Source: Leisingera daeponensis DSM 23529 (GTDB lineage Bacteria; Pseudomonadota; Alphaproteobacteria; Rhodobacterales; Rhodobacteraceae). Taken from it: a stretch of 64,000 nt of DNA. A program made the position numbers and the translations under genes. Positions 27,129 through 59,529 of this stretch are shown in pieces (the first letter of the stretch is position 1; every line of letters begins with the position of its first letter). Location of the stretch: the NCBI RefSeq assembly GCF_000473145.1, contig NZ_KI421502.1:210788-274787 (forward strand), written 5' to 3'. Under the pieces are notes generated by a model. That model ran no database searches and was not told where the DNA came from. It saw only the letters and a program-made list of their open reading frames with translations.

Positions 27129-27141
27129 AACGGAGCGAGAC

Positions 27142-32246: not shown

Positions 32247-32270
32247 GCAGCAGCCCGCCGGGCTGGCTGC
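32247..32270 (+). promoter_or_regulatory. Stem-loop between hpsK and hpsL
   Basis: Bases 32247-32256 pair with 32260-32270 in a GC-rich stem with one bulged G and a 3-base loop, inside the 112-base spacer between the binding-protein and permease genes. No T tract follows. It likely separates the expression levels of the two parts of the transporter. Confidence 0.5.
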
Positions 32271-32299
32271 GGGGGTGTGCCTGAACCCCGGGAACAGCG

Positions 32300-32812: not shown

Positions 32813-32825
32813 GGGGCCTTAAGCG

Positions 32826-34154: not shown

Positions 34155-34166
34155 GACCCCCTGAAA

Positions 34167-37205: not shown

Positions 37206-37235
37206 GCCCGCACCCCAAACAAACGGAGAGCAACC

Positions 37236-37646: not shown

Positions 37647-37683
37647 CCCCGAAACAAGACCCCCGAAGCAAAGGCAACCGACC

Positions 37684-38190: not shown

Positions 38191-38741
38191 TCCGTTCCGA
38201 AATCCTGAAAGAGATCGCGCCGATCCTGCGCAACGAGCTGGTGGTCTGCAACATCGGCATTCCGTCGCAAGAACTGCACGCCATCGACGACCAGCCCAGC
38301 AATTTCTACATGCTGGGCACCATGGGGCTGGCCTCCTCCATCGGCTTGGGGCTGGCGCTGGCGCAGCCGAAGCCGGTCATCGTGATCGACGGGGACGGCT
38401 CGATCCTGACCAACCTCGGCACCCTGCCCACCATCGGCAACAACGCGCCCGGCAACTACATCCTGATGATCATCGACAACGGCTCCTACGGCTCCACCGG
38501 CGATCAGCCGACCTACACCAGCCAGCGCACCGATCTAGCCGGCATGGCCCGCGCGGCCGGCTGCGCCCGGGTGGTGGAGGTGCAGGACAAGGACACCGGC
38601 CCCGCGCTGGAGGACGCGCTGGCCAGCGGCGAGGCGACGGTTCTGGTGGTCAAATGCGACAGCGGCAACGCCAAGATGCCGGTGATCACGATGGACCCGG
38701 TGGTGATCCGCGACCGCTTCATGAAGGCCGTGGCCGGCTGA
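38187..38741 (+). CDS. comE: Sulfopyruvate decarboxylase subunit beta
   Basis: The ATG at 38187 gives 184 residues, the thiamine-diphosphate-binding subunit. The TPP motif is IDGDGSILTNLGTL near 69-82, with IIDNGSYGSTGDQPT after it. It forms the active site with ComD. The start overlaps comD; the stop shares one base with the start of the following 2-hydroxyacid dehydrogenase (TGATG). Confidence 0.9.
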   Translation: MIRSEILKEIAPILRNELVVCNIGIPSQELHAIDDQPSNFYMLGTMGLASSIGLGLALAQPKPVIVIDGDGSILTNLGTLPTIGNNAPGNYILMIIDNGSYGSTGDQPTYTSQRTDLAGMARAAGCARVVEVQDKDTGPALEDALASGEATVLVVKCDSGNAKMPVITMDPVVIRDRFMKAVAG

Positions 38742-41899: not shown

Positions 41900-43360
41900 T
41901 CAGACGCAGGCCGGCATGTTTTCAGCCGAGCGCACAACCTGGCGCGGCGCGGTGACCTGTTTCCACTTGGACAGCGCCTTGCTGACCTCGGGGAACGCGG
42001 GCCGTTCGACAAAACGCCCATGCCCCGGGGTGGCGCAGACGGTGCCGTCGTCCACCGCCAGTTCGCCGCGGCTGAGGGTATAGCGCGGCAGGCCGGTCAC
42101 CTCGCGGCCGGAGAAGACGTTGTACTCCACCACCGACTGCTGGGTTTCGGGCGAGATCACCTTGGACTTCTTCGGATCCCACACCACCAGATCGGCGTCG
42201 GAGCCTTCCACGATCGCCCCTTTGCGCGGGTATATGTTGAGGATACGCGCGATATTGGTCGAGGTCACGGCCACAAACTCGTTCGGTGTCAGCCGCCCGG
42301 TGTTCACGCCCTCGCTCCACAGGACCGGCATCCGGTCCTCCAGCCCGCCGGTGCCGTTCGGGATCTTGGTGAAATCGCCGATGCCAAAGCGTTTCTGATC
42401 CACGGTAAAGGCGCAGTGGTCGGTCGCCACCACCTGCAGAGAACCTGCCTGAAGACCGGCCCACAGGCTGTCCTGATGCGCCTTGTCGCGGAACGGCGGC
42501 GACATCACCCGCTGCGCGGCGTGGTCCCAATTGGGGTTGCGGTATTCGCTTTCGTCCAGCACCAGATGCTGGATCAGCGGCTCGCCATAGACGCGCATGC
42601 CCTTCTGGCGCGCCCGGCGGATCGCCTCATGCGCCTGCTCGCAGGAGGTATGCACGACGTACAGCGGCACGCCCGCCATGTCGGCGATCATGATGGCGCG
42701 GTTGGTGGCTTCGCCCTCGACCTCGGGCGGGCGCGACAGCCCATGGCCTTCGGGGCCGCGGATGCCGTCGGCCAGCAGCTTCTGCTGCATGGTGGCCACC
42801 ACGTCGCCGTTTTCCGCATGCACCATCGGCAGCGCGCCAAGCGCGGCGCAGCGGCGGAAGCTGTCAAACAGCTCGTCATCGTCCACCATCAGCGCGCCCT
42901 TGTAGGCCATGAAATGCTTGAAGGTGTTGATGCCCAGATCCACGACCTGCTGCATTTCATTGAACACCTGCTCGCTCCACCAGGTCACCGCCATGTGGAA
43001 GGAGTAGTCGGCACAGGCGCGTTTGGACTTGGCGTGCCAGGCCTCCAGCGCCTCCAGCATCGACTGGCCGGGGCTGGGCAGGCAGAAGTCCACCACCATG
43101 GTGGTGCCGCCGGCAAGGCCCGCGCGGGTGCCGGATTCAAAGTCGTCCGCCGAATGGGTGCCCATGAAGGGCATTTCCAGATGCACATGCGGGTCGATGC
43201 CGCCCGGCATGACATAGCAGCCCTCGGCGTCCAGCACCTTGTCGCCAGTGAGGCCCGCGCCGATCTGCACGATCTTGCCATCCTCGATGGCGACATCGGC
43301 GGCATAGCTGCGGTCGGCGGCAACGATAGCGCCGCCCTTGATCACGGTTCTTGCAGTCAT
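41900..43360 (-). CDS. hydA: Dihydropyrimidinase (D-hydantoinase family)
   Basis: The ATG at 43360 gives 486 residues. Metal ligands are His58 and His60 (GGIDPHVHLEM), the carboxylated lysine lies in TFKHFMAYKG near 150, and further ligands in YVVHTSCEQAH and VATDHCAF near 315. It hydrolyses 5,6-dihydrouracil or dihydrothymine to N-carbamoyl-beta-amino acids, and usually also hydantoins. It follows the carbamoyl-beta-alanine amidase by 5 bases in the leftward operon, giving the second and third steps of reductive pyrimidine breakdown. No dihydropyrimidine dehydrogenase gene is present in the window. Confidence 0.95.
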   Translation of the reverse strand: MTARTVIKGGAIVAADRSYAADVAIEDGKIVQIGAGLTGDKVLDAEGCYVMPGGIDPHVHLEMPFMGTHSADDFESGTRAGLAGGTTMVVDFCLPSPGQSMLEALEAWHAKSKRACADYSFHMAVTWWSEQVFNEMQQVVDLGINTFKHFMAYKGALMVDDDELFDSFRRCAALGALPMVHAENGDVVATMQQKLLADGIRGPEGHGLSRPPEVEGEATNRAIMIADMAGVPLYVVHTSCEQAHEAIRRARQKGMRVYGEPLIQHLVLDESEYRNPNWDHAAQRVMSPPFRDKAHQDSLWAGLQAGSLQVVATDHCAFTVDQKRFGIGDFTKIPNGTGGLEDRMPVLWSEGVNTGRLTPNEFVAVTSTNIARILNIYPRKGAIVEGSDADLVVWDPKKSKVISPETQQSVVEYNVFSGREVTGLPRYTLSRGELAVDDGTVCATPGHGRFVERPAFPEVSKALSKWKQVTAPRQVVRSAENMPACV

Positions 43361-43365
43361 AGTCT

Positions 43366-44616
43366 TCACTCCACGACTTCTGCCGTTTCCAGCACGGCAT
43401 GCAAGAGCACATCTGCCCCTGCCGCGGCCCATTCACGGCTGATTTCCTCGTCCTCGTTGTGGCTGAGCCCATCGACGCAGGGGCACATCACCATCGCGGT
43501 CGGCGCCACCTTGTTGATCCAGCAGGCGTCATGGCCTGCGCCCGAGATGATGTTGCGGTGCGAATAGCCCAGCTGCTCGGCGGCACGGCGCACGGCAGAG
43601 ACGCAGTTTTCGTCGAACGTCACCGGGTCGAAATGGCCGACCTGCTCGATTTCCAGGCCCAGTTCCAGCTCCTCGGCGATCTTGGCGGCACCCTCGCGCA
43701 GGCGGCGCTCCATGTCCGCTTGCGTGTCAAAGCTGGGCGAGCGGAAGTCGATGGTGAACACCACCTTGCCCGGCACGATGTTGCGGCTGTTGGGGTAATA
43801 ATCGCAGTGGCCCACGGCACCAACGGCGTCGGGCTGGTGGCTCATCGCGATTTCATGCACCAGCGTCGTGATCCGCGCGGCCCCCAGGCCCGCATTGCGG
43901 CGCATCGGCATCGGGGTGGAGCCGGTGTGCGCCTCCTGGCCCGTCAGCGTCACCTGCAGCCAGTTCAGGCCCTGGCCATGGGTCACGACGCCGATGTCCT
44001 TGCCCTCGGCCTCCAGAATGGGGCCTTGCTCGATGTGCAGCTCGAACATCGCGTGCATCTTGCGGTTGCCCACCGGCTCATCGCCCGCGTAGCCGATGCG
44101 GGCCAGTTCCTCGCCGAACTTCTTGCCTTCCGCATCCTCGCGCGCATAGGCCCAGTCCTGTGTATGAACGCCCGCAAAAACGCCGGAGGACAGCATCGCG
44201 GGCGCAAACCGCGTGCCTTCCTCGTTGGTCCAGTTCACCACCACGATCGGGCGGCGGGTCCGGATGCCCTGATCGCGGATCGAGCGCACCACCTCAAGCC
44301 CTGCCAGCACGCCCAGCACGCCGTCGTATTTGCCGCCCGTGGGCTGGGTGTCCAGATGGCTGCCCATCATCACCGGATCCAGATCCGGCTCGGCCCCTTC
44401 CAGGCGGGCGAACATGTTGCCCATGCTGTCGACGCCGACGGACATGCCGGACTCCTCGCACCAGCGTTTGAACAGGTCGCGGCCTTCCTTGTCGGCGTCG
44501 GTCAGCGTCTGGCGGTTGCATCCGCCGCGCAGGCCGGGGCCTTTCTGCGCCATCTCCATCAGCGTGTCCCACAGGCGGCTGCCGTTGATGCGGGCGTTGC
44601 TTTGCACGTCTTTCAT
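43366..44616 (-). CDS. N-carbamoyl-beta-alanine amidase (Zn-dependent hydantoinase/carbamoylase family)
   Basis: The protein is 416 residues, an M20-like carbamoylase. Metal-binding and catalytic segments are visible: GSHLDTQPTGGKYDG near 83-97, NWTNEEGTRFAPAMLSSGVF near 125-145, LHIEQGPILE near 190-200 and SGAGHDA near 360. It splits N-carbamoyl-beta-alanine (or the 2-methyl form) into the beta-amino acid, CO2 and ammonia. It lies between the aminotransferase and dihydropyrimidinase genes, exactly fitting the reductive pyrimidine pathway (PydC role). Allantoate amidohydrolase is a relative, but the neighbours do not support that. Confidence 0.93.
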   Translation of the reverse strand: MKDVQSNARINGSRLWDTLMEMAQKGPGLRGGCNRQTLTDADKEGRDLFKRWCEESGMSVGVDSMGNMFARLEGAEPDLDPVMMGSHLDTQPTGGKYDGVLGVLAGLEVVRSIRDQGIRTRRPIVVVNWTNEEGTRFAPAMLSSGVFAGVHTQDWAYAREDAEGKKFGEELARIGYAGDEPVGNRKMHAMFELHIEQGPILEAEGKDIGVVTHGQGLNWLQVTLTGQEAHTGSTPMPMRRNAGLGAARITTLVHEIAMSHQPDAVGAVGHCDYYPNSRNIVPGKVVFTIDFRSPSFDTQADMERRLREGAAKIAEELELGLEIEQVGHFDPVTFDENCVSAVRRAAEQLGYSHRNIISGAGHDACWINKVAPTAMVMCPCVDGLSHNEDEEISREWAAAGADVLLHAVLETAEVVE

Positions 44617-44679
44617 ATCTCTCTCCCTATGCCGCCCCTGCCCCGCGCGCCGCTTGGGGCGCAGGCCAGGGGCAGGTCC

Positions 44680-45999
44680 TCACGCGACGAGCGACTCGGC
44701 CAGAATGCCGATCAGCTCGTCGATTTCCTTCTTTTCGATGATCAGCGGCGGCGACATGGCGATGATGTCTCCGGTGGTGCGCAGATGCGCCCCCTTGTCC
44801 CAGGCGCGCAGGTAGGTGTCGAAGGCGCGTTTGGTCGGCACCCCCGCAACCGGCTCCAGCTCCACCGCGCCGACCAGGCCGGAGCAGCGGATATCCTTCA
44901 CATGCGGCATCCCTTGGAGGCTGAACAGGGCATCGGCCCAATAGTCCTCCAGCGACGCCGCACGCTCGAACAGCTCCTCCTCGCGGTAGGTGTCCAGCGC
45001 CGCCAGCGCCGCAGCGCAGGCGACCGGGTTGCCGGAGTAGGTATAGCCATGGAACAGCTCGATCATGTGCTCCGGGCCGGTCATGAAGGCATCGTGGATG
45101 GCGCTGCTGATCATCACCGCGCCCATCGGAATGACCCCGTTGGTCAGCCCCTTGGCGGTGGTGATCATGTCCGGCTCCACGCCATAGTAATCCGCGCCAA
45201 ACGCCCGGCCCAAGCGGCCATAGGCGGTGATCACCTCGTCAAAGATCAGCAGGATGCCATGCTCCCGGGTGATTTCGCGCAGGCGCTGCAAGTACCCTTG
45301 GGGCGGCAGGATCACCCCGGCGGAGCCCGCCATCGGCTCGACGATCACCGCGGCGATGGTTTCCGCGCCGTGCAGCTCGATCAGCCGCACCAGATCCTCC
45401 GCCAACTCCGCGCCATGCTCCGGCTGGCCCTTGGTAAAGGCGTTGCGCTCGGGATCATGGGTGTGGCGCAGGTGGTCGACACCGGTCAGCAGGCTGCCGA
45501 AATGGCGGCGGTTGTTGACGAGGCCGCCCACCGAAATGCCGCCGAAATTGACCCCGTGATAGCCCTTCTCGCGCCCGATCAGCCGGGTGCGGCCCTGCTC
45601 GCCATTGGCCTTGTGGTAGGCCAGCGCGATTTTCAGCGCGGTCTCCACCGATTCCGAGCCGGAGTTGGTGAAGAACACATGGTTCAGATCGCCCGGCGCC
45701 AGCTCCGCCAGCCGGTTTGCCAGCTCAAACGCCTTGGGGTGGCCCATCTGGAAGGCGGGCGCATAGTCCAGTTCGATGACCTGTTTCTGCACCGCTTCGG
45801 TGATGCGCGGCGCAGCGTGGCCCGCGTTCACGCACCACAGGCCCGCGGTGCCATCCATCACCTTCCGCCCGTCGGTGGTGGTGTAATACATGCCCTCCGC
45901 GGCAGCGACCATGCGCGGCGTCTGCTTGAATTGCCGGTTGGCCGTAAACGGCATCCAATAAGCATCCATGGCGTTCGGCCGCTTCAGTTGGTTATCCAT
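44680..45999 (-). CDS. Omega-amino acid:pyruvate aminotransferase (class III), likely beta-alanine:pyruvate
   Basis: The ATG at 45999 gives 439 residues. The class III fold shows AYWMPFTANRQFKQTPRMVA at the N terminus, the cofactor segment FTNSGSESVETALKIA near 108-123, FDEVITAYGRLG near 250 and the PLP lysine in MITTAKGLTNGVIPMGA near 279. The N-terminal WMPFTANRQF wording is typical of beta-alanine:pyruvate transaminases. It would turn beta-alanine into malonate semialdehyde, the fourth step of reductive pyrimidine use. It lies between pntB and the carbamoylase gene. Confidence 0.93.
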   Translation of the reverse strand: MDNQLKRPNAMDAYWMPFTANRQFKQTPRMVAAAEGMYYTTTDGRKVMDGTAGLWCVNAGHAAPRITEAVQKQVIELDYAPAFQMGHPKAFELANRLAELAPGDLNHVFFTNSGSESVETALKIALAYHKANGEQGRTRLIGREKGYHGVNFGGISVGGLVNNRRHFGSLLTGVDHLRHTHDPERNAFTKGQPEHGAELAEDLVRLIELHGAETIAAVIVEPMAGSAGVILPPQGYLQRLREITREHGILLIFDEVITAYGRLGRAFGADYYGVEPDMITTAKGLTNGVIPMGAVMISSAIHDAFMTGPEHMIELFHGYTYSGNPVACAAALAALDTYREEELFERAASLEDYWADALFSLQGMPHVKDIRCSGLVGAVELEPVAGVPTKRAFDTYLRAWDKGAHLRTTGDIIAMSPPLIIEKKEIDELIGILAESLVA

Positions 46000-46024
46000 G
46001 TCCAAGTCCTTTTCTAAAGAGCGT

Positions 46025-47455
46025 TCAGGCCGCAATCTGGCCCAAAAGCGTGTCGAGGCTTTGCTTTGCATCGCCATAGAACATGCGGGTGTTTTCCTTG
46101 AAGAACAGCGGGTTCTCGATGCCGGAATAGCCCGTGCCCTGGCCGCGCTTGGAGACAAACACCTGTTTGGCCTTCCAGCACTCCAGCACCGGCATGCCCG
46201 CGATGGGGGAGTTGGGGTCCTCCTGCGCGGCAGGGTTCACGATGTCGTTGGAGCCGATCACGATGGCCACGTCGGTGTCCGGGAAATCCTCGTTGATCTC
46301 GTCCATCTCCAGCACGATGTCGTAGGGCACCTTGGCCTCCGCCAGCAGCACGTTCATGTGGCCCGGCAGGCGGCCCGCGACCGGGTGGATGGCAAAGCGC
46401 ACAGTCTTGCCTTTCGCGCGCAGGCGGCGGGTCAGCTCGGCCACGTTCTGCTGCGCCTGCGCCACCGCCATGCCGTAGCCGGGGATGATCACCACGCTGT
46501 CGGCCTCCTCCAGCGCCGCGGCCACGCCGTCGGCGTCGATGGCGATCTGCTCGCCGTCGATCTCCATCGCCGGACCGGAGGTGCCGCCGAAGCCGCCCAG
46601 GATCACGCTGACAAAGGAGCGGTTCATCGCCTTGCACATGATGTAGCTGAGGATCGCACCGGAGGAGCCCACCAGCGCGCCGACCACGATCAGCAGGTCA
46701 TTGCCCAGCGAGAAGCCGATCGCCGCCGCGGCCCAGCCCGAGTAGCTGTTCAGCATCGAGACCACCACCGGCATGTCGGCGCCGCCGATGCCCATGATCA
46801 GGTGGTAGCCGATGAACAGCGCCGCCAGCGTCATCAGCACGAGGGGCAGGAAGCCGCCGGTGTTGAAGTACCAGATCAGGCAGAGCAGGGAGAGCCCCGC
46901 GGCGCTGGCGTTCAGCATATGCCCGCCCGGCAGCTTGGTGGCCGCCGAGGTGACCTTGCCCGCCAGCTTGCCGAAGGCAATCACGGAGCCGGTGAAGGTG
47001 ATCGCCCCGATGAAGATGCCGAGGAACAGCTCCACCCGCAGGAAGGCGATCTCGGCCGGGGTCTTCTTGGCGATCAGCTTGGCGAAGGTGCCGAGGTCCC
47101 CGGTGCTGGCAGCCGCCGCCACATTTCCGATCTCGAAATGCGCGATGAAGCCGACGAACACCGCGGCGAGGCCGACCAGCGAGTGCATCGCCGCGACCAG
47201 CTGCGGCATCTCGGTCATCTGCACCTTCTTGGCGACATAGGTGCCGATGATCCCGCCGCCCGCGATCAGCAGCAGCGACAACAGCCACAGGCCCGAGCCG
47301 GGGCCGATCAGAGTGGCGAAAACCGCCAGCCCCATGCCCGCGATGCCGTACCAGACCGCGCGTTTGGCGCTTTCCTGATTGGACAGCCCGCCCAGGCTGA
47401 GGATGAACAGAACAGCCGCAACGACATAGGCGGCGGTGGTGAAACCGTAATCCAT
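46025..47455 (-). CDS. pntB: NAD(P) transhydrogenase subunit beta
   Basis: The protein is 476 residues. Nine or so membrane helices fill the first 260 residues, and the C-terminal 180 form the NADP(H)-binding domain III, with [20 protein letters not shown] near 324-343, [20 protein letters not shown] and [12 protein letters not shown] at the end. With PntA it uses the proton gradient to reduce NADP+ with NADH. It is encoded together with pyrimidine-degradation genes, which suggests that the pathway needs NADPH. Confidence 0.97.
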
Positions 47456-47470
47456 GAACTCGGCCCTTCT

Positions 47471-49042
47471 TTAAGATTTCTGGAACATGGCAAGCATGCG
47501 CCGGGTGACGAGGAAGCCGCCGAAGATGTTGATCCCGGCCATGAAGACGCTGAGCGCCGCCAAGAGGATCACCAGGAACGAGCCGGAGCCGATCTGCATC
47601 AGCGCGCCCAGGATGATGATCGAGGAGATCGCGTTGGTGACCGCCATCAGCGGCGTGTGCAAGCTGTGCGCGACGCCCCAGATCACCTGGAAGCCCACGA
47701 AACAGGCCAGCGCGAAGACGATGAAATGCTGCATGAAGCTGACCGGCGCAAAGAGGCCCACCAGCAAAAGCAGCGCGCCGCCGCCCGCCAGCATCGCGAC
47801 CTGGCTCTTGGTCTGCGCCTTGAAGGCCTCAACCTCCCTGGCGCGTTTCTCCTCCGGCGTCAGCTCCGGCACCGCGGCCTTGGGCTTGGCGGCAATCGCC
47901 TGCACCTTGGGCGGCGGCGGCGGGAAGGTGATCTCGCCCTCGAACGCCACGGTGGCGCCGCGGATCACGTCGTCCTCCATGTTGTGGTTGACCTGGCCGT
48001 CCTTGTCCGGCGTCAGGTCGGCCATCATGTGGCGGATGTTGGTGGCGTAAAGCGACGACGACTGCGCCGCCATCCGGCTGGGGAAGTCGGTGTAGCCGAT
48101 GATGGTGACGCCGTTTTCGGTGACGATCTTCTCATCCGCGACGGTCAGCTTGCAGTTGCCGCCCTTCTCCGCGGCCAGGTCGACGATGACCGAGCCGGGC
48201 TTCATTGCGGCGACCATGTCCTCGGTCCACAGCTCTGGCGCTTCGCGGTTGGGGATCAGCGCGGTGGTGATGACGATGTCGACCTCCGGCGCCAGCTCGC
48301 GGAACTTGGCCAGCTGCGCTTCACGGAATTCCGGCGAGGACACAGAGGCATAGCCGCCGGTGGCGGCACCGTCCTGCTGCTCCTCCTCGAAATCGAGATA
48401 GACGAACTCGGCGCCCATCGATTCCACCTGCTCGGCCACTTCCGGGCGCACGTCGAAGGCATAGGTGACGGCCCCCAGCGAGGTCGAGGTGCCGATGGCG
48501 GCAAGCCCGGCGACGCCTGCGCCGACCACCAGCACCTTGGCGGGCGGCACCTTGCCTGCGGCGGTGATCTGGCCGGTGAAGAAGCGGCCGAAGTTGTTGC
48601 CCGCCTCGATGACCGCGCGGTAGCCCGCGATATTGGCCATGGAGCTGAGCGCATCCATCTTCTGCGCGCGGGAGATCCGCGGCACCATCTCCATGGCGAT
48701 CACATTGGCGCCCTTGGCCTTGGCCAGCGCCATGCCTTCTTCGTTCCCGGCCGGATTGAAGAAGGAGATCAGCGTCTTGCCCCTGGCCAGCCGCTTCAGC
48801 TCGGCGGCATCCGGCTGGCGCACCTTGGCGATGATATCGGCGGCCTTCCACAGCGCCGCCGCTGTCTTGATGATCTCGACCCCGGCGGCTTCATAGGCGG
48901 CATCGGAAAACCCCGCCGCCGCCCCGGCCCCCGTCTCGATCGCGCAGTCATACCCCAGCTTCTGCAGCTGAACCGCAGACTCCGGCGTCATCGCAACGCG
49001 CGACTCTCCAGCCGCCAGCTCCCTTGGCGTTCCAATAAGCAC
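47471..49042 (-). CDS. pntA: NAD(P) transhydrogenase subunit alpha (fused, full-length type)
   Basis: The protein is 523 residues and keeps the NAD(H)-binding domain (about 1-370, similar to alanine dehydrogenase, with [20 protein letters not shown] near 167-186) and the membrane part (about 400-520) in one chain, as in E. coli. Many alphaproteobacteria split this subunit in two. It is the first gene of the leftward operon pntA-pntB-aminotransferase-carbamoylase-hydA. It is divergent from cofG across 238 bases, with a good promoter-like pair at 49103-49131. Confidence 0.97.
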
Positions 49043-49280
49043 TTCAATGTCCTCCCTTTTCGCGGATGCGTCCGGCGGACCGGCTGCCTGCGATTGGGAA
49101 GAAGTATTTGGTTGTTTTACTTAGTAGTCAATATTTTTGTCAGCTCATATTTTTAGCAGTTTAAAAACAGCCTGTTATGATGGCAATCTTTGCCTTCACG
49201 GTATTTTTTTTGACTTACAGCTAAAAAAATATTTGACATGGCGCGCCCTCCTCCACAGTCTTTGAGGCAGGGAGGACACC
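49043..49280. promoter_or_regulatory. Divergent promoter region between pyrimidine (pntA) and F420 (cofG) operons
   Basis: This 238-base gap is strikingly AT-rich for the genome. It contains related T-tract elements: TCAATATTTTTGTCAG at 49128-49143, TCATATTTTTAGCAG at 49145-49159 (17 bases on), TATTTTTTTTGACTTACAG at 49202-49220, and an inverted copy CTAAAAAAATATTTGACA at 49221-49238. The first overlaps the -35 of the predicted pntA promoter. This looks like a shared operator array. A strong ribosome site GGGAGG ends the region ahead of cofG. Confidence 0.65.
49103..49131 (-). promoter_or_regulatory. Predicted sigma-70 promoter for the pntA operon
   Basis: On the minus strand TTGACT (49126-49131) and AATACT (49103-49108) are separated by 17 bases, a good match to the housekeeping consensus. 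The expected transcript would start near 49096, leaving a leader of about 54 bases to the pntA start codon. Confidence 0.5.
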
Positions 49281-50423
49281 ATGAACACCCAATCGCTCAG
49301 CACAGGCACCGCCTGGGCGGAGACCGGGGATTTGCGCGCCCTGATGATGCGTGCAGCCGGGATCCGCGACGCCCAATGGGGCCGCACGGTCACCTATTCG
49401 CGCAAGGCCTTCGTGCCCTTGACCAACATGTGCCGCGACACCTGCGGCTATTGCACCTTCGTCAAGCATCCGGATTCGCCGGAGGCCAATATCATGACGC
49501 CGGAGCAGGTGCTGGCGGTGGCGCAGAAAGGCGAGCGCGAGGGCTGCAAGGAGCTGCTGTTCAGCCTCGGCGAGAAGCCGGAGCTGCGCTATGAGAAGGC
49601 CCGCAAGGGGCTGGAACGGCTCGGCTATTCCCGCCTGACCGATTACCTGCGCGACATGTGCGAGCTGGTGCTGACGGAGACCAGCCTGCTGCCGCATGTG
49701 AACGCGGGCACCCTCACCGATGACGAGATCGACCTGCTGCGCCCGGTCTCCGCCTCGATGGGGATGATGCTGGAAACCGTCAGCCGCCGCCTGACCCGCA
49801 AGGGCCAGCCGCATTATGCCTGCCCTGACAAGGTGCCGGTGCAACGGCTGCGCACGCTGGAACGCGCGGGCCAGAAGCAGGTGCCCTTCACCACCGGCCT
49901 GCTGATCGGCATCGGCGAGACATTTGCCGAGCGGATCGAGGCGCTGCACGCGATCAATGACGCCCACGCCCGCCACGGCCACATTCAGGAAGTCATCATC
50001 CAGAACTTCCAGCGCAAACCGGATATCGAGATGGCGAACCACCCGGAACCGGCGCTGGAGGACATGCTGCGCACCATCGCCGCCGCCCGCATCATCCTGG
50101 CGCCGGAGATCAGCCTGCAGGCGCCGCCGAACCTCAGCACCCGCCACATCGCCTATCTGGAGGCGGGCATCAACGACTGGGGCGGCATCTCGCCCGTGAC
50201 CATCGACTTCATCAACCCGCAGCACGAATGGCCGGAGATCCGGGCGCTGGCAAGCTCCTGCACCGGGGCCGGGTTCGAACTGCGCGAGCGGCTTACCGTC
50301 TACCCCCGCTACCTGACCGGGGACAGCGGCTTCATCAACCCCGGCGTGCTGGCCCGGGCGGCCGGCATGGCCCAGGAAAACGGCCTCGCCCGCGATCAGC
50401 GCCACATCGGAGAGACAGCATGA
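49281..50423 (+). CDS. cofG: 7,8-didemethyl-8-hydroxy-5-deazariboflavin synthase subunit CofG
   Basis: The protein is 380 residues, a radical-SAM enzyme. The cluster motif CxxxCxxC is Cys51, Cys55, Cys58 in NMCRDTCGYCTFVKHP. CofG-specific wording includes QEVIIQNFQRKPDIEM near 233-248 and WGGISPVTIDFINPQHEWP near 297-315. With CofH it makes FO, the deazaflavin core of coenzyme F420. The ATG follows GGGAGGACACC. It is the first gene of the rightward F420 operon; its stop overlaps the cofH start by 4 bases. Confidence 0.97.
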   Translation: MNTQSLSTGTAWAETGDLRALMMRAAGIRDAQWGRTVTYSRKAFVPLTNMCRDTCGYCTFVKHPDSPEANIMTPEQVLAVAQKGEREGCKELLFSLGEKPELRYEKARKGLERLGYSRLTDYLRDMCELVLTETSLLPHVNAGTLTDDEIDLLRPVSASMGMMLETVSRRLTRKGQPHYACPDKVPVQRLRTLERAGQKQVPFTTGLLIGIGETFAERIEALHAINDAHARHGHIQEVIIQNFQRKPDIEMANHPEPALEDMLRTIAAARIILAPEISLQAPPNLSTRHIAYLEAGINDWGGISPVTIDFINPQHEWPEIRALASSCTGAGFELRERLTVYPRYLTGDSGFINPGVLARAAGMAQENGLARDQRHIGETA

Positions 50424-51694
50424 CCATCCAGCACCCCGCCGAGAATTTCGCCACTGTCCCGGCTGCCGTCAGCGCCGCCTCCGCCCCGGTCCGCGCCATC
50501 CTGGAGATGGCGCTGGAGGGCGGCGAAGTGTCCGAGGCCGAAGGCATCGAGCTGTTCCGCGCCACCGGCGCTGACGCCGAAGCGGTCTATGCCGTGGCCG
50601 ACGCGCTGCGCCGCCGCGCCAATGGCGACCGCGTTTCCTTTGTGGTGAACCGCAACATCAACTTCACCAATATCTGCTATATGGGCTGCCGGTTCTGCGG
50701 CTTTGCCAAGCGCAGCGAGGACAAGGACGCCGAGTGGCTGGAGCCCGCGCAGATCGTGGCGCGCGCGCAGGAAGCCTGGGACCGCGGCGCCACCGAGGTC
50801 TGCATCCAGGGCGGCCTGCATCCCAAGATGGAAGGCACCTATTACCGGGACATCGTGCGCGCCATCAAGGCGGCGCTGCCGGACATGCACATCCATGCCT
50901 TCTCGCCGTTTGAGATCTGGTACGGCGCGTCCAAGACAAAGATGTCCTACCGCGACTTCCTGGCGGATCTGAAGGAGGCGGGCCTCGGTTCGATGCCCGG
51001 CACCGCGGCGGAGATCCTGGATACCGAAGTGCGGATGCAGCTGACCAAGAACAAGCTGAGCGCCGAAAAATGGGTGGAGATCATCCGCGCCGCGCACGAG
51101 GTCGGCATCCCGACCACCGCCACCATCATGTACGGCCATATCGACGGGCCGCAGCATTGGGCCGCGCACATCCGCCTGCTGCGCGACATCCAGAAGGACA
51201 CCGGCGGCTTTACCGAGCTGGTGCCGCTGTCCTTCGTGCATACCGAGTCGCCGCTCTGGTCGCAGAACCCGGACAAAGTGCGCCCCGGCCCGACCGCGCT
51301 GGAGGTGGACCTGATGCACGCGGTGTCGCGCATCATGCTGCACGGCTGGATCGACAATATCCAGGTGAGCTGGACCAAGCTGGGCGCGGCGCGGGCGCAA
51401 GAGATGCTGTCGCGCGGGGTGAATGACCTCGGCGGCACGCTGATGAACGAAAGCATCTCGCGCTCGGCCGGGTCGGACCACGGGCAGGAGATCACCGCGC
51501 GCGAACTGGCGCAGATCATCCGCGCCGCGGGCCGGGTGCCGGTGCGCCGCAACACCATCTACGACATCCGCGAGGTTTACGAACACCACGACCCCGAGGT
51601 GATCGCGCCGCTGGTCGACCGTCAGGGCCGCGACCCGCTGGCGTTTCTGGAAATGTTCCCCGAACGCGGGCCCAAGCTGGAGGCAGCGGAATGA
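50420..51694 (+). CDS. cofH: FO synthase subunit CofH (5-amino-6-(D-ribitylamino)uracil--L-tyrosine transferase)
   Basis: The ATG at 50420 overlaps the cofG stop and gives 424 residues. The radical-SAM cysteines are Cys86, Cys90 and Cys93 (NICYMGCRFCGFAKR). CofH features include CIQGGLHPKMEGTYYRDIVR and the C-terminal LGGTLMNESISRSAGSDHGQ. It joins tyrosine to the pyrimidine 5-amino-6-ribitylaminouracil. As in many bacteria outside actinobacteria, CofG and CofH are separate chains rather than a fused FbiC. It overlaps cofD by ATGA. Confidence 0.97.
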   Translation: MTIQHPAENFATVPAAVSAASAPVRAILEMALEGGEVSEAEGIELFRATGADAEAVYAVADALRRRANGDRVSFVVNRNINFTNICYMGCRFCGFAKRSEDKDAEWLEPAQIVARAQEAWDRGATEVCIQGGLHPKMEGTYYRDIVRAIKAALPDMHIHAFSPFEIWYGASKTKMSYRDFLADLKEAGLGSMPGTAAEILDTEVRMQLTKNKLSAEKWVEIIRAAHEVGIPTTATIMYGHIDGPQHWAAHIRLLRDIQKDTGGFTELVPLSFVHTESPLWSQNPDKVRPGPTALEVDLMHAVSRIMLHGWIDNIQVSWTKLGAARAQEMLSRGVNDLGGTLMNESISRSAGSDHGQEITARELAQIIRAAGRVPVRRNTIYDIREVYEHHDPEVIAPLVDRQGRDPLAFLEMFPERGPKLEAAE

Positions 51695-52656
51695 ACGCGC
51701 AAAAGCATAAGGTCACCCTGCTGGCGGGCGGCGTCGGCGGCGCCAAGATGGCCGAGGGCTTGGCCGCGCTGCCGGATGTGGCGCTGTCGGTGATCGGCAA
51801 TGTGGCGGATGACGATGATTTCCACGGCCTCTGGGTCTCGCCCGATATCGACACGCTGACCTACAGCCTGGCGGATGTGATCGACCGCACCCAGGGCTGG
51901 GGCGTGGCGGATGAAAGCCACCGGGCGCTGGAAACGCTGAACAAGCTGGGCGCAGACACCTGGATGTCGCTGGGCGACCGCGACTTTGGCCTGCACATCC
52001 ACCGCACCATGCGCCGCCTGCAGGGCGACCGGCCCAGCGATATCGCCCGCGACGTGGCGCGCGCCTTTGGCGTGCAGGCGGAAATCCTGCTGCCGACGGA
52101 TAATAAGGTGCAGACACGGGTGCGCACCGATGCCGGCTGGCTGAGCTTCCAGGAGTATTTCGTCCGCGAGCGCTGCGCGCCGGAGGTGCGGGAGCTGGCC
52201 TTTGACGGGCTGGACAAGGCCCGCCCCGCGCCAGAGGCGCTGGCGGCGATCCGGCAGGCGGATCTGATCGTGATTGCGCCCTCCAACCCGCTGGTCAGCA
52301 TCGCCCCCATTCTGGGCGTGCCGGGGATCACCGCGGCGCTGCGGGCGGCACGCGCGCAGAAGGTTGCTGTCAGCCCGTTCATCGGCGGCAAGGTGGTCAA
52401 GGGGCCGGCCGACCGCATGATGGCGGCGCTGGGGGAGCGGGCCGATGCCGCCGGTGTGGCCGCGCGCTACCGCGGGCTGGCCGGTACGCTGGTGATCGAC
52501 CACGCCGATGCCGGGCTGGCGGGCGAAATCCGCGCGATGGGGCTGGCACCGGTCTGCAGCGGCATTCTGATGAAAACCCAGGACGATAAGGCCCGGCTGG
52601 CGCGGGAAGTGGCGGATCTGGGCCTTGCCCGCGCGAACCGGGAGACGGCGGCATGA
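51691..52656 (+). CDS. cofD: 2-phospho-L-lactate transferase CofD
   Basis: The protein is 321 residues. The nucleotide-binding N terminus reads LLAGGVGGAKMAEGL (residues 10-24), and SIAPILGVPGITAALRAARA follows near 210-229. It moves the phosphoester moiety from the activated guanosine precursor to FO, giving F420-0 or dehydro-F420-0. The three-carbon unit (2-phospholactate, phosphoenolpyruvate or 3-phosphoglycerate) varies among bacteria and cannot be read from sequence. It overlaps both neighbours by ATGA. Confidence 0.96.
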   Translation: MNAQKHKVTLLAGGVGGAKMAEGLAALPDVALSVIGNVADDDDFHGLWVSPDIDTLTYSLADVIDRTQGWGVADESHRALETLNKLGADTWMSLGDRDFGLHIHRTMRRLQGDRPSDIARDVARAFGVQAEILLPTDNKVQTRVRTDAGWLSFQEYFVRERCAPEVRELAFDGLDKARPAPEALAAIRQADLIVIAPSNPLVSIAPILGVPGITAALRAARAQKVAVSPFIGGKVVKGPADRMMAALGERADAAGVAARYRGLAGTLVIDHADAGLAGEIRAMGLAPVCSGILMKTQDDKARLAREVADLGLARANRETAA

Positions 52657-53312
52657 GCGCGGCGGCGAAATCCGGCAAGCGGCTGGCGGTGATCCCGATG
52701 AAGGATCCCTCCCGGGCCAAGACGCGGCTGAGCCTCGCGCTGGCGCCGCGGGACCGCGAAGCGCTGGCCCGGGGCCTGTTCCGCTCCACCATCATGCGGC
52801 TGCAGGAGGCGGTTGCCAGGCTGCCCGACGGTGCCGCCGACATTGCCGTGGTGTCCAACAGCCCGGCGATTGCGCGCATTGCGCGGCAGGCCGGTCTGAT
52901 CTGCATCGACGACAACGACCCCGGCACCCTGTCGCTGGCGGTGGCGGCGGCGGCGGATTGGGCAGCGGCCAAAGGGTATGAGGCACTGTGCGTGCTGCCG
53001 GGCGATCTGGCGGACCCGTCGCCGGACGATCTGGCGCAGCTTCTGGCCTATCCGGTTGACGGCACCCGCGCAGTGCTGTGCCCGGCGACCGACCTTGGCA
53101 CCAACGCGCTTTTGGTGCCGCTGCCCTGCCCCTTTGCCTTTGCCTACGGGCAGAAATCGCTGATCGCCCACCGGCGCGCGGCAGAGGCCGCGGGCCTGTG
53201 CCCGGTGGTGCTGCCGCTGGACAGCCTGCGGGTTGACGTTGACACCGCCGAGGACCTCAGCTGCCTGCTGGCGCAGAACCCGCAGGCGCTGATGCGGGAG
53301 GGCGCGCGATGA
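52653..53312 (+). CDS. cofC: 2-phospho-L-lactate guanylyltransferase CofC
   Basis: The protein is 219 residues. It begins with the nucleotidyltransferase motif VIPMKDPSRAKTRLS (residues 13-27) and shows LCVLPGDLADPSP near 111-123 and the metal-site segment SLRVDVDTAED near 190-200. It activates the three-carbon phosphate with GTP for CofD. It overlaps cofD and cofE by ATGA, so all five biosynthetic genes are translationally chained. Confidence 0.94.
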   Translation: MSAAAKSGKRLAVIPMKDPSRAKTRLSLALAPRDREALARGLFRSTIMRLQEAVARLPDGAADIAVVSNSPAIARIARQAGLICIDDNDPGTLSLAVAAAADWAAAKGYEALCVLPGDLADPSPDDLAQLLAYPVDGTRAVLCPATDLGTNALLVPLPCPFAFAYGQKSLIAHRRAAEAAGLCPVVLPLDSLRVDVDTAEDLSCLLAQNPQALMREGAR

Positions 53313-54082
53313 GCCTTTCGGTCTCTCTCACCGCCGTGCCCGGCGTGCCGGATATCCAGAACGGCGACGATCTGGCGGCCATCCTGGGCGATTGCCTGGA
53401 GGCCGCAGGCCTGGGCCTCGAGGACGGCGATATCCTGTGCATCGCACAGAAGGTGTTTTCCAAGGCCGAAGACTGCATCATTCCGCTGGCCTCGGTCACG
53501 CCCTCGGCGGAAGCCATCAAATACGGCGAGGAGCTGAACAAGGACCCGCGCAAGGTGGAAATCGTCCTGCGCGAAAGCACCCGCGTTGTGCGCGCCTTCC
53601 GCCGCCCGGATCAGAACACCGGCACGATGATCTGCGAGCACCGGCTGGGCTTCATCTCCGCCAACGCGGCGGTGGATGAGTCGAACCTCGGCGAGGAGGA
53701 GGCGGCGATGGTGCTGCCGCGCGATCCCGATGCCAGCTGCGAGCGTTTGCGCGCGGCGCTGGCCGCCCGGTTCGGCGCGCAGATCGGCGTGGTGATGACC
53801 GACACCTTCGGCCGCCCCTGGCGGCTGGGCCAGGTCAACGTGGCCATCGGGCTGAGCAAGGTTCCCGCCACCATTCAGGAGCAGGGCAACCTGGACGCAT
53901 GGGGGCGGCCGCTGCAGGTGACCGAACCGGCGCTGGCCGATGAGATTTCCGCCGCCTCCGGTCTGGTGGTGCGCAAGAACGGAAAAACACCGGCGGTGCT
54001 GCTGCGCGGGCTCGACTGGCAGCCCGCCGACAGCCGCGGCGCCGACATACTCAGGAAAAAACAGGAGGATATGTTCAGATGA
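53309..54082 (+). CDS. cofE: Coenzyme F420-0:L-glutamate ligase CofE
   Basis: The protein is 257 residues, the stand-alone CofE without the FbiB nitroreductase-like domain. Conserved segments are [20 protein letters not shown] near 38-57, [13 protein letters not shown] near 113-125 and [22 protein letters not shown] near 156-177 (metal and GTP site). It adds one or more glutamates to F420-0. It overlaps cofC upstream and npdG downstream by ATGA. Confidence 0.96.
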
Positions 54083-54747
54083 AGATCGCAATCATTGGCG
54101 GCACCGGGCCGCAGGGCCAGGGGCTGGCACTGCGCTTTGCCCGCGCAGGGATCGCCGTGGCACTGGGTTCGCGCGATGGCGAGCGCAGCGCCGGCATCGC
54201 GGCGGAGCTGATGGCAAAGCTGCCCGCGGGCGCCGCAGAAATCACCGGCCTCGACAACGAAGGCGCCACCGCGGCGGCGGATGAAATGGTCATCCTCGCG
54301 GTGCCGTTCTCGGCCCATAACGCCACGCTGGAGGCGCTGAAGCCGGGCCTGACGGGCAAGATCCTGGTCGATATCGTGGTGCCGCTGAAAGAAGGCGACC
54401 CCAAGAAGGTGGAGATGCCGCCCGAAGGCTCCGCCACCGAGGCCGCGCAGGCGCTCTTGGGCGACGAGATCCCGGTGATCGGCGCGCTGCACAACGTGTC
54501 GGCCACCACGCTGAACAACCTCGACTGGCCGATCAACTGCGACATCCTGGTCTGCGGCAACAGCCTGCCCGCCCGCAAGAAGGTGATCGAGCTGGTCAGC
54601 GCGCTGGACGTTCAGGCCTACAACGCCGGCGACGCCGAGGCCGCCCGCTGCATCGAGGCGATCACCCCGATCCTGATCCGCCAGAACATTTCGAAGGCGG
54701 TTCCTTTCACCCATGCGGGCATCCGCATCTGGGCCCCCGAACACTAA
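54079..54747 (+). CDS. npdG: NADPH-dependent F420 reductase (Fno/NpdG type)
   Basis: The protein is 222 residues. The Rossmann motif is [20 protein letters not shown] at residues 5-24, with the NADP-phosphate grip in SRDGERS near 34-40. [20 protein letters not shown] near 137-156 is typical of F420:NADP oxidoreductases. It passes hydride between NADPH and F420. In this setting, with a proton-driven transhydrogenase encoded divergently, reduction of F420 by NADPH is the likely direction. It overlaps cofE by ATGA and is followed by the LLM gene after 24 bases. Confidence 0.93.
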
Positions 54748-54771
54748 GATTCCAACAGGGAGAAAACACAA

Positions 54772-55773
54772 ATGGAATTCGGTATTTGCTTCAAGGGCTT
54801 CGTTGAGCCCGAACGCGCCCGCGCACTGGTCCGCCAAGCGGAAAACGCAGGCTTTGCCTACTGCTGGTTCTACGACAGCCACATCCTGTGGCGCGAAAGC
54901 TTCGTCGCCATGGCGATGTGCATGGAGCACACCACCAAGATGCGCTTCGGCCCGCTGGTGACCAACCCGAACTCGCGCGAGTGGTCGGTGGCCGCCTCGC
55001 TGTTCGGCTCGCTGGCGAAACAGTCCGGCGGCCGCTTCGACATCGGCCTCGGCCGCGGCGACAGCGCCGTGCGGGTGATGGGCAAAAAGCCCTCGACCAT
55101 CAGCCGGATGGAAGAATTCACCCACGTCGTCAAGTCGCTGATCCGCGGCGAGGAAGTGCAGTACGGCGAATGCCCCGAGCCGGTGAAATTCCCTTGGGCC
55201 CAGGGCTATGAGCTGCCGGTCTGGATCGGCGCCTACGGTCCCAAGGCCCTGGCCTCGGCCGGCAAGGTCGGTGACGGTGTTGTCCTGCAAATTGCTGAAC
55301 CCAAGATCATCAAGTGGCTGGCGGATCAGGCCAAGGCCGGCGGCGAGGCCGAAGGCCGCGACATGTCGAACTACCGCGTCATGGCCGCAGCACCCGCCCA
55401 TACCGGCCCGATCGAGGAAGGTATTGAGAAGACCAAGTGGTTCCCCGCCATGGTCGGCAACCATGTCGCTGACATCGTTGAAAAATACGGCACCGACGGT
55501 GATCACGTCCCGACCAGCCTGACCGACTACATCAAGAACCGCAAGGGCTACGATTACTCCAAGCACGGGCAGAGCGATAACCCGTACCTGGACTTCATCA
55601 CCGAAGACATCGTCAAGAGCTTCTGCGTGCTGGGCACCCCGGACGAGCATATCGCCAAGATCCGCGATCTGCAGGATGCCGGCACCACCCAGTTCAACAT
55701 CTATCTCGACAGCGGCGACGAAGAGAAAATCATCGCCGACTACGCCGAGAAGATCATCCCGGCCTTCCGCTGA
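54772..55773 (+). CDS. Luciferase-like (LLM class) F420-dependent oxidoreductase
   Basis: The protein is 333 residues, a TIM-barrel of the luciferase-like/Mer superfamily. Visible features are MEFGICFKGFVEPERARALV at the start, FYDSHILWRESFVAMAMC near 34-51, the family glycine stretch GRFDIGLGRGDSAVRVMG near 83-100, and VWIGAYGPKALASAGKVGDG near 149-168. It is the only F420-using enzyme besides NpdG in the operon, so it is the likely reason the cofactor is made. By context it is a candidate F420H2-dependent reductase of uracil, thymine or a related ring. Its codon use looks highly optimised, hinting at strong expression. The substrate is unproven. Confidence 0.88.
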   Translation: MEFGICFKGFVEPERARALVRQAENAGFAYCWFYDSHILWRESFVAMAMCMEHTTKMRFGPLVTNPNSREWSVAASLFGSLAKQSGGRFDIGLGRGDSAVRVMGKKPSTISRMEEFTHVVKSLIRGEEVQYGECPEPVKFPWAQGYELPVWIGAYGPKALASAGKVGDGVVLQIAEPKIIKWLADQAKAGGEAEGRDMSNYRVMAAAPAHTGPIEEGIEKTKWFPAMVGNHVADIVEKYGTDGDHVPTSLTDYIKNRKGYDYSKHGQSDNPYLDFITEDIVKSFCVLGTPDEHIAKIRDLQDAGTTQFNIYLDSGDEEKIIADYAEKIIPAFR

Positions 55774-55799
55774 ACTGCGCCGGGCACCAGCCCGGAAAC

Positions 55800-55835
55800 G
55801 GCACCGTCCGGACAAATCTCCCCGCGGACGGTGCC
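55800..55835 (+). terminator. Stem-loop after the LLM oxidoreductase gene
   Basis: GGCACCGTCCG at 55800-55810 and CGGACGGTGCC at 55825-55835 form an 11-bp perfect stem with a 14-base loop, 27 bases after the stop codon. No T tract follows. It marks the likely end of the F420 operon. Confidence 0.65.
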
Positions 55836-55943
55836 TATTGGCGGGCGGCTCCGGCTGCCCGCTCCTTTCTTTGCCGCGCGGTCTGCCTGCACCGGCAGAT
55901 TGTTTTGACCCGGCCTTTTGCGCGCGACCGCTGGCAACAGCCT

Positions 55944-55973
55944 TTGACTTGTGCCAATAGGGCGTCAGATAAA
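55944..55973 (+). promoter_or_regulatory. Predicted promoter of the RutR-like regulator gene
   Basis: TTGACT at 55944-55949 and GATAAA at 55968-55973 are separated by 18 bases. The expected transcript start near 55980 lies after an in-frame GTG at 55951, which favours the ATG at 55999 as the true start of the regulator. Confidence 0.45.
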
Positions 55974-55998
55974 CATTTTTATAAGTGGCGGAATTTAC

Positions 55999-56631
55999 AT
56001 GGCGCGCATGGCAGCTGAAAAGCCGAAGACCCGGATTCAGCGGAAAAAGACGGAACAGATCCTGGCCGCCGCACTGGAGGTTTTTGCCCAGCACGGATCC
56101 TCCGGCGCGTCGATCAACCTGATTGCCAAGAACGCCGGGCTGACCACGCCGAACCTGCTGTATTACTTCGAAAGCAAGGACGCGATCCGCCAGGAGCTGC
56201 TGGCCCGCACCCTGCAGCTGTGGATGGCGCCTTTGAACATGCTGAGCCAGCACGGCGACCCGATCGACGAAATCTGCCAGTACATCCGCCGCAAGCTGGA
56301 AATCTCGCGGAATTTTCCCAAGGAAAGCAAGTTCTTCGCCAATGAGATCCTCAGCGGCCTGCCGCAGTCGCGCAGCGAGATCTTCGGCCCGCTGAAAGAG
56401 CTTTACAACACCAAGATCACGGTGCTGGAGGACTGGATGCGCGAGGGCCGGATTGCTACCGTCGATCCGCACCATCTGCTGTATTCGATTTGGGCCACCA
56501 CCCAGCACTACGCCGATTTCGACGTGCAGATCGAGGAAATCGCCCCCGCCAAGGCACAGGACCGCTATGCCGAGGCCGAGGTGTTCCTGCTGGAGATGTA
56601 CCAGAAGCTGCTGGCCGTAGACGCCGGCTGA
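55999..56631 (+). CDS. TetR-family regulator, RutR-like (pyrimidine-responsive type)
   Basis: The protein is 210 residues. The TetR helix-turn-helix covers about 15-62 (AALEVFAQHGSSGASINLIA, then NLLYYFESKDAIRQELLART). The C-terminal half resembles RutR/YcdC closely in wording: LQLWMAPLNM, IRRKLEISRNFPKESKFF, DPHHLLYSIWATTQHYADFD. RutR of E. coli senses uracil and controls pyrimidine degradation. Its place right after the F420 operon suggests control of the pyrimidine and F420 genes. I found no match to the E. coli RutR box in the promoter regions. Confidence 0.88.
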   Translation: MARMAAEKPKTRIQRKKTEQILAAALEVFAQHGSSGASINLIAKNAGLTTPNLLYYFESKDAIRQELLARTLQLWMAPLNMLSQHGDPIDEICQYIRRKLEISRNFPKESKFFANEILSGLPQSRSEIFGPLKELYNTKITVLEDWMREGRIATVDPHHLLYSIWATTQHYADFDVQIEEIAPAKAQDRYAEAEVFLLEMYQKLLAVDAG

Positions 56632-57259: not shown

Positions 57260-58510
<1,251 letters not shown>

Positions 58511-58511
58511 A

Positions 58512-59525: not shown

Positions 59526-59529
59526 CCGG

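Follow-up and report, generated by a model that had tools for sequence, protein, structure and literature searches.

A 64,000-nucleotide stretch of the genome of Leisingera daeponensis DSM 23529 (contig NZ_KI421502.1, positions 210,788 to 274,787; hereafter the window) carries two divergent operons, one for reductive pyrimidine breakdown and one for the synthesis of coenzyme F420, the latter ending in a gene for a luciferase-like monooxygenase (LLM)-class oxidoreductase of family TIGR03842. Our surveys support the existence of a recurrent unit made up of F420 genes, TIGR03842 genes and genes of reductive pyrimidine breakdown. It has a RutR-type operator in common with preT, and many of its carriers lack PreTA. 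The LLM protein of the window is our candidate for the reductase of the pyrimidine ring.

Searches with NCBIfam profiles confirmed the gene order and strands that the initial annotation gave for both operons. The genes for pntA, pntB, an omega-aminotransferase, an amidase and a dihydropyrimidinase run leftward, those for cofG-cofH-cofD-cofC-cofE, npdG and the LLM oxidoreductase run rightward, and a gap of 238 bases separates them (Table 1). The left operon runs on beyond the coordinates of that annotation into the gene of an NCS1 nucleobase symporter, whose start was inferred from the Leisingera caerulea orthologue (same place in our locus L158; open frame to 42021). The F420 biosynthesis set is complete, with cofC, cofD, cofE, cofG and cofH each over cut-off, and the predicted second and third enzymes of classical reductive pyrimidine breakdown, dihydropyrimidinase and beta-ureidopropionase, are both present; neither PreT/PreA nor PydA is encoded inside the F420 unit. 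The best solved relative of the dihydropyrimidinase is the dihydropyrimidinase 3dc8 (842 bits), and solved relatives of the amidase are 8apz, an N-carbamoyl-L-amino-acid hydrolase (642 bits), and 8c46, an N-carbamoyl-beta-alanine amidohydrolase (629 bits). The aminotransferase is of the AptA type, whose substrate we take to be beta-alanine. The genome measures 4.64 Mb, and the contig to which the window belongs (276 kb) is probably a plasmid; in L. caerulea (L158), a 250 kb plasmid bears genes in the same layout. The window's cofG and cofH (49281-51694) are unfused, as in most of the 80 loci described below, and the 2021 review, in the sections drawn on here, ascribes the fused FbiC to proteobacteria (PMC8498797).

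Table 1. Genes and candidate regulatory sites of the divergent operons, with scores given against profile cut-offs.
Feature	Position in window	Strand	Basis
NCS1-family nucleobase:cation symporter	40315..41805 (about)	-	TIGR00800, 363 bits vs cut-off 353; last gene of left operon
Dihydropyrimidinase (hydA/pydB)	41900..43360	-	TIGR02033, 608 vs 393 bits; start from orthologue, open frame to 43432
Beta-ureidopropionase / N-carbamoyl-beta-alanine amidohydrolase type (M20 amidase, pydC type)	43366..44616	-	TIGR01879, 406 vs 204 bits
Omega-aminotransferase AptA	44680..45999	-	NF052567, 742 vs 500 bits; open frame to 46158
pntB, transhydrogenase beta subunit	46025..47455	-	NF006974, 659 vs 689 bits (just below cut-off)
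pntA, transhydrogenase alpha subunit	47471..49042	-	NF006942, 801 vs 383 bits; first gene of left operon
Common divergent promoter region	49043..49280	.	gap separating pntA and cofG frames
Weaker RutR-type operator candidate	49115..49132	.	3 mismatches to TTTKACCNNNNGGTMAAA; one of 8 such sites (<=3 mismatches) in the window, weak alone
RutR-type operator candidate	49209..49226	.	2 mismatches to TTTKACCNNNNGGTMAAA; about 55 bp before cofG
cofG	49281..50423	+	TIGR03550, 453 vs 213 bits
cofH	50420..51694	+	TIGR03551, 507 vs 374 bits; open frame from 50228, start from orthologue
cofD	51691..52656	+	TIGR01819, 283 vs 257 bits
cofC	52653..53312	+	TIGR03552, 140 vs 105 bits
cofE	53309..54082	+	TIGR01916, 225 vs 181 bits
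npdG/fno, NADPH:F420 oxidoreductase	54079..54747	+	TIGR01915, 189 vs 150 bits
LLM-class F420-dependent oxidoreductase (putative uracil/thymine reductase)	54772..55773	+	TIGR03842, 504 vs 295 bits
RutR-like TetR regulator	55999..56631	+	TIGR03613, 198 vs 368 bits (below cut-off); open frame from 55951, start from orthologue

The LLM protein is 98% identical to proteins of Leisingera and other Roseobacteraceae. Its nearest solved proteins by sequence are F420-dependent methylenetetrahydromethanopterin reductases (Mer; 130 bits), and a Foldseek search with its AlphaFold2 model (predicted local distance difference test score, pLDDT, 83) returned as its first 17 matches only F420-dependent enzymes (Mer, FGD2, Adf and FGD1), ahead of any flavin enzyme. 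Use of F420 by the protein is thus predicted from proxies, namely the lead of F420 enzymes in the sequence and fold searches and the co-occurrence with CofG in 8 of 8 CofG-positive genomes of the family. A reductive role is suggested because an npdG or FGD-like gene, together with PntAB in the window, suggests a supply of reduced F420. The protein gave no match to the RutA family (TIGR03612), a search limited to this window protein, with the rest of its own genome unsearched.

Named genomes were scanned for close relatives of the LLM protein, and the best 80 of 303 confirmed loci were taken, many of which are near relatives of one another. Each fetched locus comprises up to 10 kb on each side of the LLM gene, with a match threshold of 100 bits; many clusters extend past these 10 kb limits, and the neighbourhood counts are therefore lower bounds. 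Among the 80 loci, cofD was found in 74, cofE in 75, npdG in 71 and a RutR-like gene in 48, and the amidase was present in 42, the dihydropyrimidinase in 33 and either one in 46. Gene order varies among the loci, the transporter is of the NCS1 or the ATP-binding cassette (ABC) type depending on the locus, and the hosts are Alphaproteobacteria and Gammaproteobacteria (for example Marinomonas, Oceanospirillum and Pseudomonas). As a control, we took the F420 loci (12-20 kb) of 20 of the 39 class genomes having CofG but no TIGR03842 protein over cut-off; these contained no dihydropyrimidinase (0/20) and a single, weak amidase match (1/20; 30% identity). A contig labelled Nocardioides marinus DP1N28-1 (L040), which bears cof genes and an LLM protein 98% identical to that of the window, probably comes from a mislabelled or contaminated assembly.

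The link between the LLM gene and the pyrimidine genes also appears apart from cofG. In genome G288, the LLM gene lies directly before the amidase, dihydropyrimidinase and ABC genes, and cofG is on another contig. Similarly, locus L196 of genome G507 (contigs C16 and C10) has an LLM-amidase-dihydropyrimidinase-ABC arrangement with linked cofD, cofE and npdG, and cofG on another contig. A single record of a Streptomyces plasmid shows a TIGR03842 protein (590 bits) directly after a dihydropyrimidinase (554 bits), with a class-III aminotransferase and a CN-hydrolase nearby. A second type of beta-ureidopropionase, unrelated to the first, belongs to the CN-hydrolase superfamily, and we infer that the Streptomyces protein acts as such. 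A second architecture was met in seven loci (L072, L074, L077, L082, L086, L099 and L101), where CofG and CofH are fused, an FGD-like gene replaces npdG (the one scanned scores 494 vs 420 bits for TIGR03554) and the TIGR03842 gene is divergent from cofD; no dihydropyrimidinase was seen in the fetched stretch of these seven. Further, the PreA-positive genome G081, which has no TIGR03842 protein over cut-off, contains an F420 operon (L219) with unfused cofG and cofH (cofG 64% identical), and its F420 may serve another purpose.

The distribution of the LLM family was examined across the bacterial family to which the window belongs, with each genus represented by one genome (198 in all) and presence defined as a profile match over cut-off; absence means a score below cut-off, some genomes are drafts, and related genomes are not independent. 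TIGR03842 was over cut-off in 9 of the 198, with a clear gap between at least 486 bits and 63, and CofG in 8, all of them LLM-positive (p = 2e-13). The ninth LLM-positive genome, in which CofG was not found, is 74% complete, and its contig breaks off inside the cof genes. PreA was present in 165 of the 198 genomes, with an uneven distribution (2/9 LLM-positive vs 163/189 LLM-negative genomes, p = 5.6e-5), and dihydropyrimidinase in 177. Among the dihydropyrimidinase-positive genomes, the LLM protein occurs in 6 of 17 without PreA and in 2 of 160 with it (p = 8e-6). The initial annotation had called for a survey of co-occurrence with hydA and anticorrelation with preTA; within the family its outcome favours the proposal, and at class level, where PreA is rare, the LLM protein shows no association with PreA. 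It is the family sample that carries the anticorrelation test, because PreA was found in 49 of 289 genomes of the class sample and the LLM protein in 4. G288 and the two other LLM-positive class genomes besides G000 have no PreA over cut-off.

Of the named LLM-positive genomes behind the 80 loci, 48 were searched for PreA, RutA and dihydropyrimidinase. PreA was over cut-off in 15 (33 without), RutA in one (G317; 47 without, among them G308 and G309 at 223 bits, below the cut-off of 498) and dihydropyrimidinase in 47. Of the 33 PreA-negative genomes, 24 have, judged by coordinates, a dihydropyrimidinase at a distance of about 8-12 kb from the LLM gene, 17 show at least part of it in the fetched locus, and 28 have npdG in the locus. 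This coordinate linkage is quoted for PreA-negative genomes only, because some PreA-positive rows are unreliable, the nearest coordinate lying on a contig that also holds PreA; L116 was excluded, its contig being uncertain. Dihydropyrimidinase copies average 1.18 in PreA-negative and 2.07 in PreA-positive LLM-positive genomes, as expected if the latter carry both sets. Paracoccus denitrificans DSM 413 (L054) carries the unit, with neither PreA nor RutA over cut-off.

The initial annotation had reasoned that no PreTA was available to this organism and that the module was self-contained by need. This premise was rejected by the genome search, which found on the chromosome (contig C2) a complete cluster of preT, preA, amidase and dihydropyrimidinase genes followed by ABC transporter genes. 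Its PreA (C2:1317700-1318992; 724 vs 335 bits) is the only one over cut-off in the genome and lies outside the window and the F420 unit. An inference from the absence of PreTA thus fails here, because the chromosome encodes the complete cluster. The same annotation had counted a functional preTA elsewhere in the genome, required for growth on uracil, against its own proposal, and the first half of that objection, the presence of preTA, is borne out by C2. The genome has exactly two dihydropyrimidinases over cut-off, one in the window and one on the chromosome, which are 73% identical; the two amidases are 72% identical. In this genome, the F420 module would be a second route beside the chromosomal PreTA, perhaps for other conditions or substrates.

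The two kinds of gene set appear to have exchanged partners. LLM clusters of other genomes contain genes 53-86% identical to the amidase, dihydropyrimidinase and ABC genes that stand with PreTA on the chromosome here. A tree was built from 65 dihydropyrimidinases, each labelled according to its neighbour, and on it we counted at least four changes between PreA-linked and LLM-linked; rows of fewer than 400 aligned residues were dropped, and eight rows linked to neither were left out of the count. The labels of L249, L250 and L254-L257 as LLM-linked come from coordinates and the others from presence in the fetched locus. The count remains four after removal of the Streptomyces and gammaproteobacterial rows. 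The LLM-linked dihydropyrimidinase of G391 falls inside the PreA clade beside a PreA-linked copy (support 99/99), and one PreA-linked dihydropyrimidinase falls inside an LLM clade (100/99). The window dihydropyrimidinase belongs to a group (97/97) of LLM-linked and unlinked rows only.

The regulator after the right operon was called RutR-like in the initial annotation, and this stands as far as likeness goes: its nearest solved relatives are the RutR structures 6z1b/3loc (156 bits), the next other protein scoring 37, although it does not reach the RutR family cut-offs. A W-x-x-(T/S)-Q-(H/T)-Y stretch is found in 50 of 50 TetR proteins of the clusters and also in RutR, where its W and Q presumably touch uracil. 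An operator pattern, TTTKACCNNNNGGTMAAA, was read from palindromes before cofG in 16 inspected loci, and it resembles what we take to be the RutR consensus. With at most two mismatches, 50 of 70 loci have it in the 340 bp preceding cofG, a count that includes the 16 discovery loci; the background was 0.6% in shuffles, which preserve base composition only, and 3% in random stretches of the same loci, which may include real sites. No such site precedes cofG in the LLM-less F420 loci (0/20). The window was also searched with an E. coli RutR consensus, TTGACCANNTGGTCAA; each of its five sites has three mismatches, and the divergent promoter holds none of them.

Two sets of upstream regions are independent of the discovery of the pattern. 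At the same limit of two mismatches, the operator precedes preT in 17 of 17 genomes of the family (19 fetched, two too short; shuffles 0.24%), and each of the seven loci of the second architecture, in which CofGH is fused and the FGD-like gene stands in for npdG, has exactly one site, at most 125 bases before the LLM gene (7/7). The organism's own chromosomal locus (L006, 20 kb) has a one-mismatch site before preT and an exact site just before the likely amidase start. The 80 loci contain 76 sites with at most one mismatch, none inside a cluster gene match, and 47 of the 80 have at least one. In the window, the candidate at 49209-49226 is the only site with at most two mismatches in 64 kb, and sites at the same distance occur in several relatives.

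These observations suggest the following pathway. The NCS1 transporter would import a pyrimidine, PntAB would make NADPH from the proton gradient, and NpdG would hand a hydride from NADPH to F420. With F420H2, the TIGR03842 LLM enzyme would then reduce uracil or thymine at C5=C6, a step otherwise catalysed by PreTA, which is a flavin/iron-sulfur enzyme. Uracil is a Michael acceptor, and an obligate hydride donor would be well suited to transferring a hydride to its C6. Dihydropyrimidinase, beta-ureidopropionase and the AptA transaminase would convert dihydrouracil to beta-alanine and malonate semialdehyde. The RutR-like regulator would act at RutR-type operators in the divergent promoter, and pyrimidine supply would thereby control F420 synthesis and the pathway jointly. 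In this scheme, we infer the reaction and its direction, the ligand and the identity of the binding regulator.

That the LLM enzyme is the F420H2-dependent ring reductase in an F420 version of the reductive uracil/thymine pathway has, in our judgement from sequence and genomic context, a probability of about three in four. It is very probable that F420 in bacteria carrying the unit is tied to reductive pyrimidine breakdown. We also favour, on balance, the wider view that TIGR03842 proteins are F420H2-dependent uracil/thymine reductases without flavin or iron-sulfur, exchanged repeatedly with PreTA in Alpha- and Gammaproteobacteria and present also in Actinobacteria, and that supporting them is the main reason why their carriers make F420, often under pyrimidine control. 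The proposal of the initial annotation that F420H2 replaces PreTA is thus upheld in part by the recurrent unit, the alternation within the family and the common operator; PreTA is present in the very genome for which it was made, and ring reduction would be the function deduced from these associations.

Several observations weigh against this reading. The genome itself has PreTA and 15 of the 48 LLM-positive relatives have PreA, so replacement of PreTA is not obligatory. In the fetched stretch, 34 of the 80 LLM loci show neither amidase nor dihydropyrimidinase, and a Paracoccus alcaliphilus plasmid (L157) has no match to either within 20 kb of its cof-npdG-LLM unit. This unit has its own substrate-binding protein/ABC transporter. 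Of the 17 family genomes with dihydropyrimidinase and without PreA, 11 are also without the LLM protein; four of these have partial PreA matches and four are less than 90% complete (one is both), which leaves four unexplained. At class level, there is no association between the LLM protein and PreA (PreA in 1/4 LLM-positive vs 48/285 LLM-negative genomes, p = 0.53). The window regulator is below cut-off for both RutR profiles (198 vs 368 and 175 vs 230 bits), the better of the window's operator candidates has two mismatches, and 20 of the 70 cofG upstream regions have no operator. L006 holds two further two-mismatch sites, so the two-mismatch limit is not strict. No such site was found in the LLM-positive loci L191, L192, L195 and L198, nor in the separate cofG locus of G288 (L279), and operator control therefore differs between lineages.

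It is possible, though unlikely, that the F420-LLM module belongs to the same type of pathway and has another ring compound as its substrate, one with which PreTA copes badly (thymine alone, a modified pyrimidine or some other cyclic ureide), the two systems being complementary and not interchangeable. Such a division of labour would account for the PreA retained in this genome and the 15 relatives, for the higher dihydropyrimidinase copy number of PreA-positive genomes and for transporters that vary among loci, and dihydropyrimidinases do accept hydantoins. However, similar amidase-dihydropyrimidinase-ABC sets stand with PreTA in one genome and with the LLM gene in others, the partner changes occur inside one enzyme lineage, and the same operator pattern precedes preT and cofG. 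We regard as very unlikely that the substrate of the LLM enzyme is an intermediate further down the pathway, for example malonate or methylmalonate semialdehyde, and not the ring. The gene whose absence tracks the LLM gene in the family is PreA, which a semialdehyde reductase would not make dispensable, and the closest relatives of the enzyme are Mer and not Adf, although alcohol dehydrogenases do occur among the F420-dependent LLM enzymes (Adf, 1rhc, is Foldseek match 12) and the Rut pathway has in RutE a reductase of malonate semialdehyde.

Less credible still is that the F420 and pyrimidine genes are merely co-regulated neighbours, with F420 in some other use and a control that reflects the uracil-derived precursor of CofH. 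Synthesis of FO (7,8-didemethyl-8-hydroxy-5-deazariboflavin) consumes ribityldiaminouracil, according to the sections of the 2021 review drawn on here (PMC8498797), and the 34 of 80 LLM loci whose fetched stretch shows no gene for a pyrimidine enzyme would be in keeping with this reading. Against it stand the LLM-less F420 loci, which have neither operator nor dihydropyrimidinase, G288, where the LLM gene adjoins the amidase and dihydropyrimidinase genes and cofG lies elsewhere, and the operator before the LLM gene itself in the seven loci of the second architecture. Chance clustering or plasmid hitch-hiking, which the probable plasmid location of the window and the plasmid-borne Leisingera and Paracoccus copies might suggest, can be practically dismissed in view of the recurrence in changing order across classes and the correlation and operator tests.

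Other parts of the window contain genes for quite different functions. Past the regulator, 57275-60834 encodes 2-oxoacid dehydrogenase subunits E1 alpha, E1 beta and E2, the L158 counterparts of which are annotated as the branched-chain type and accompanied by an Lrp-type regulator and lpdA. A phytochrome-like histidine kinase with PHY and HATPase domains is encoded at 18786-21065 on the minus strand, and 25578-29550 encodes a NuoL-like membrane protein and then DabA (PF10070, 822 bits), the pair of a DAB-type inorganic carbon transporter. The region 31042-39852 has genes for a tripartite ATP-independent periplasmic (TRAP) transporter (DctP and DctM) and a HisD-like dehydrogenase; the rest, by synteny with L158 1-5485, comprises a short-chain dehydrogenase/reductase, an alcohol dehydrogenase, the sulfopyruvate decarboxylase comDE and an alpha-hydroxy acid oxidase. 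We take this gene set to resemble those of dihydroxypropanesulfonate/sulfolactate catabolism.

In the literature, the reason why proteobacteria make F420 was called an open question in the 2021 review; according to the sections drawn on here, experimental work on bacterial enzymes that use F420 had until then been confined to Actinobacteria (PMC8498797). Those sections list Paracoccus denitrificans and Oligotropha carboxidovorans as trace F420 producers with no assigned role, and propose for their F420 no role in pyrimidine use (PMC8498797). The unit described here offers a specific and testable answer to that question, in a laboratory species, P. denitrificans, that is already reported as a trace producer. 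Within the open-licence literature, in the portions available to us, we found no assignment of F420 to pyrimidine breakdown. A 2025 paper, in the portion available to us, proposes a putative F420-dependent LLM 'yanthine' reductase in the reductive uric acid degradation of Chloroflexota, at the reduction of a purine-derived ring for which other phyla have YgfK or UacX (PMC12507026). Likened by description to the LLM protein of the window, that reductase would be a parallel in another pathway and another phylum.

Among characterized systems, Mer is the nearest to the LLM protein in both sequence and fold (Foldseek E 4e-24); however, the two are only 25-28% identical, and the cluster showed no genes for tetrahydromethanopterin. 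The Rut pathway, in which RutA is an LLM-class flavin monooxygenase, likewise ties an enzyme of the LLM superfamily and a RutR-like regulator to pyrimidine genes. It differs in that the window LLM protein has no RutA family match and RutA is over cut-off in just one of the 48 LLM-positive genomes, RutB to RutG being unsearched. The PreTA/PydA (dihydropyrimidine dehydrogenase) pathway agrees with the unit in its second and third enzymes and in a RutR-type operator pattern, and it has an ABC transporter like that of other LLM loci. Here, in contrast, the proposed first enzyme is an F420-dependent LLM protein and not PreT-PreA, and the genes for synthesis of its cofactor are inside the unit; if true, a step of catabolism that is widespread would gain a second chemistry.

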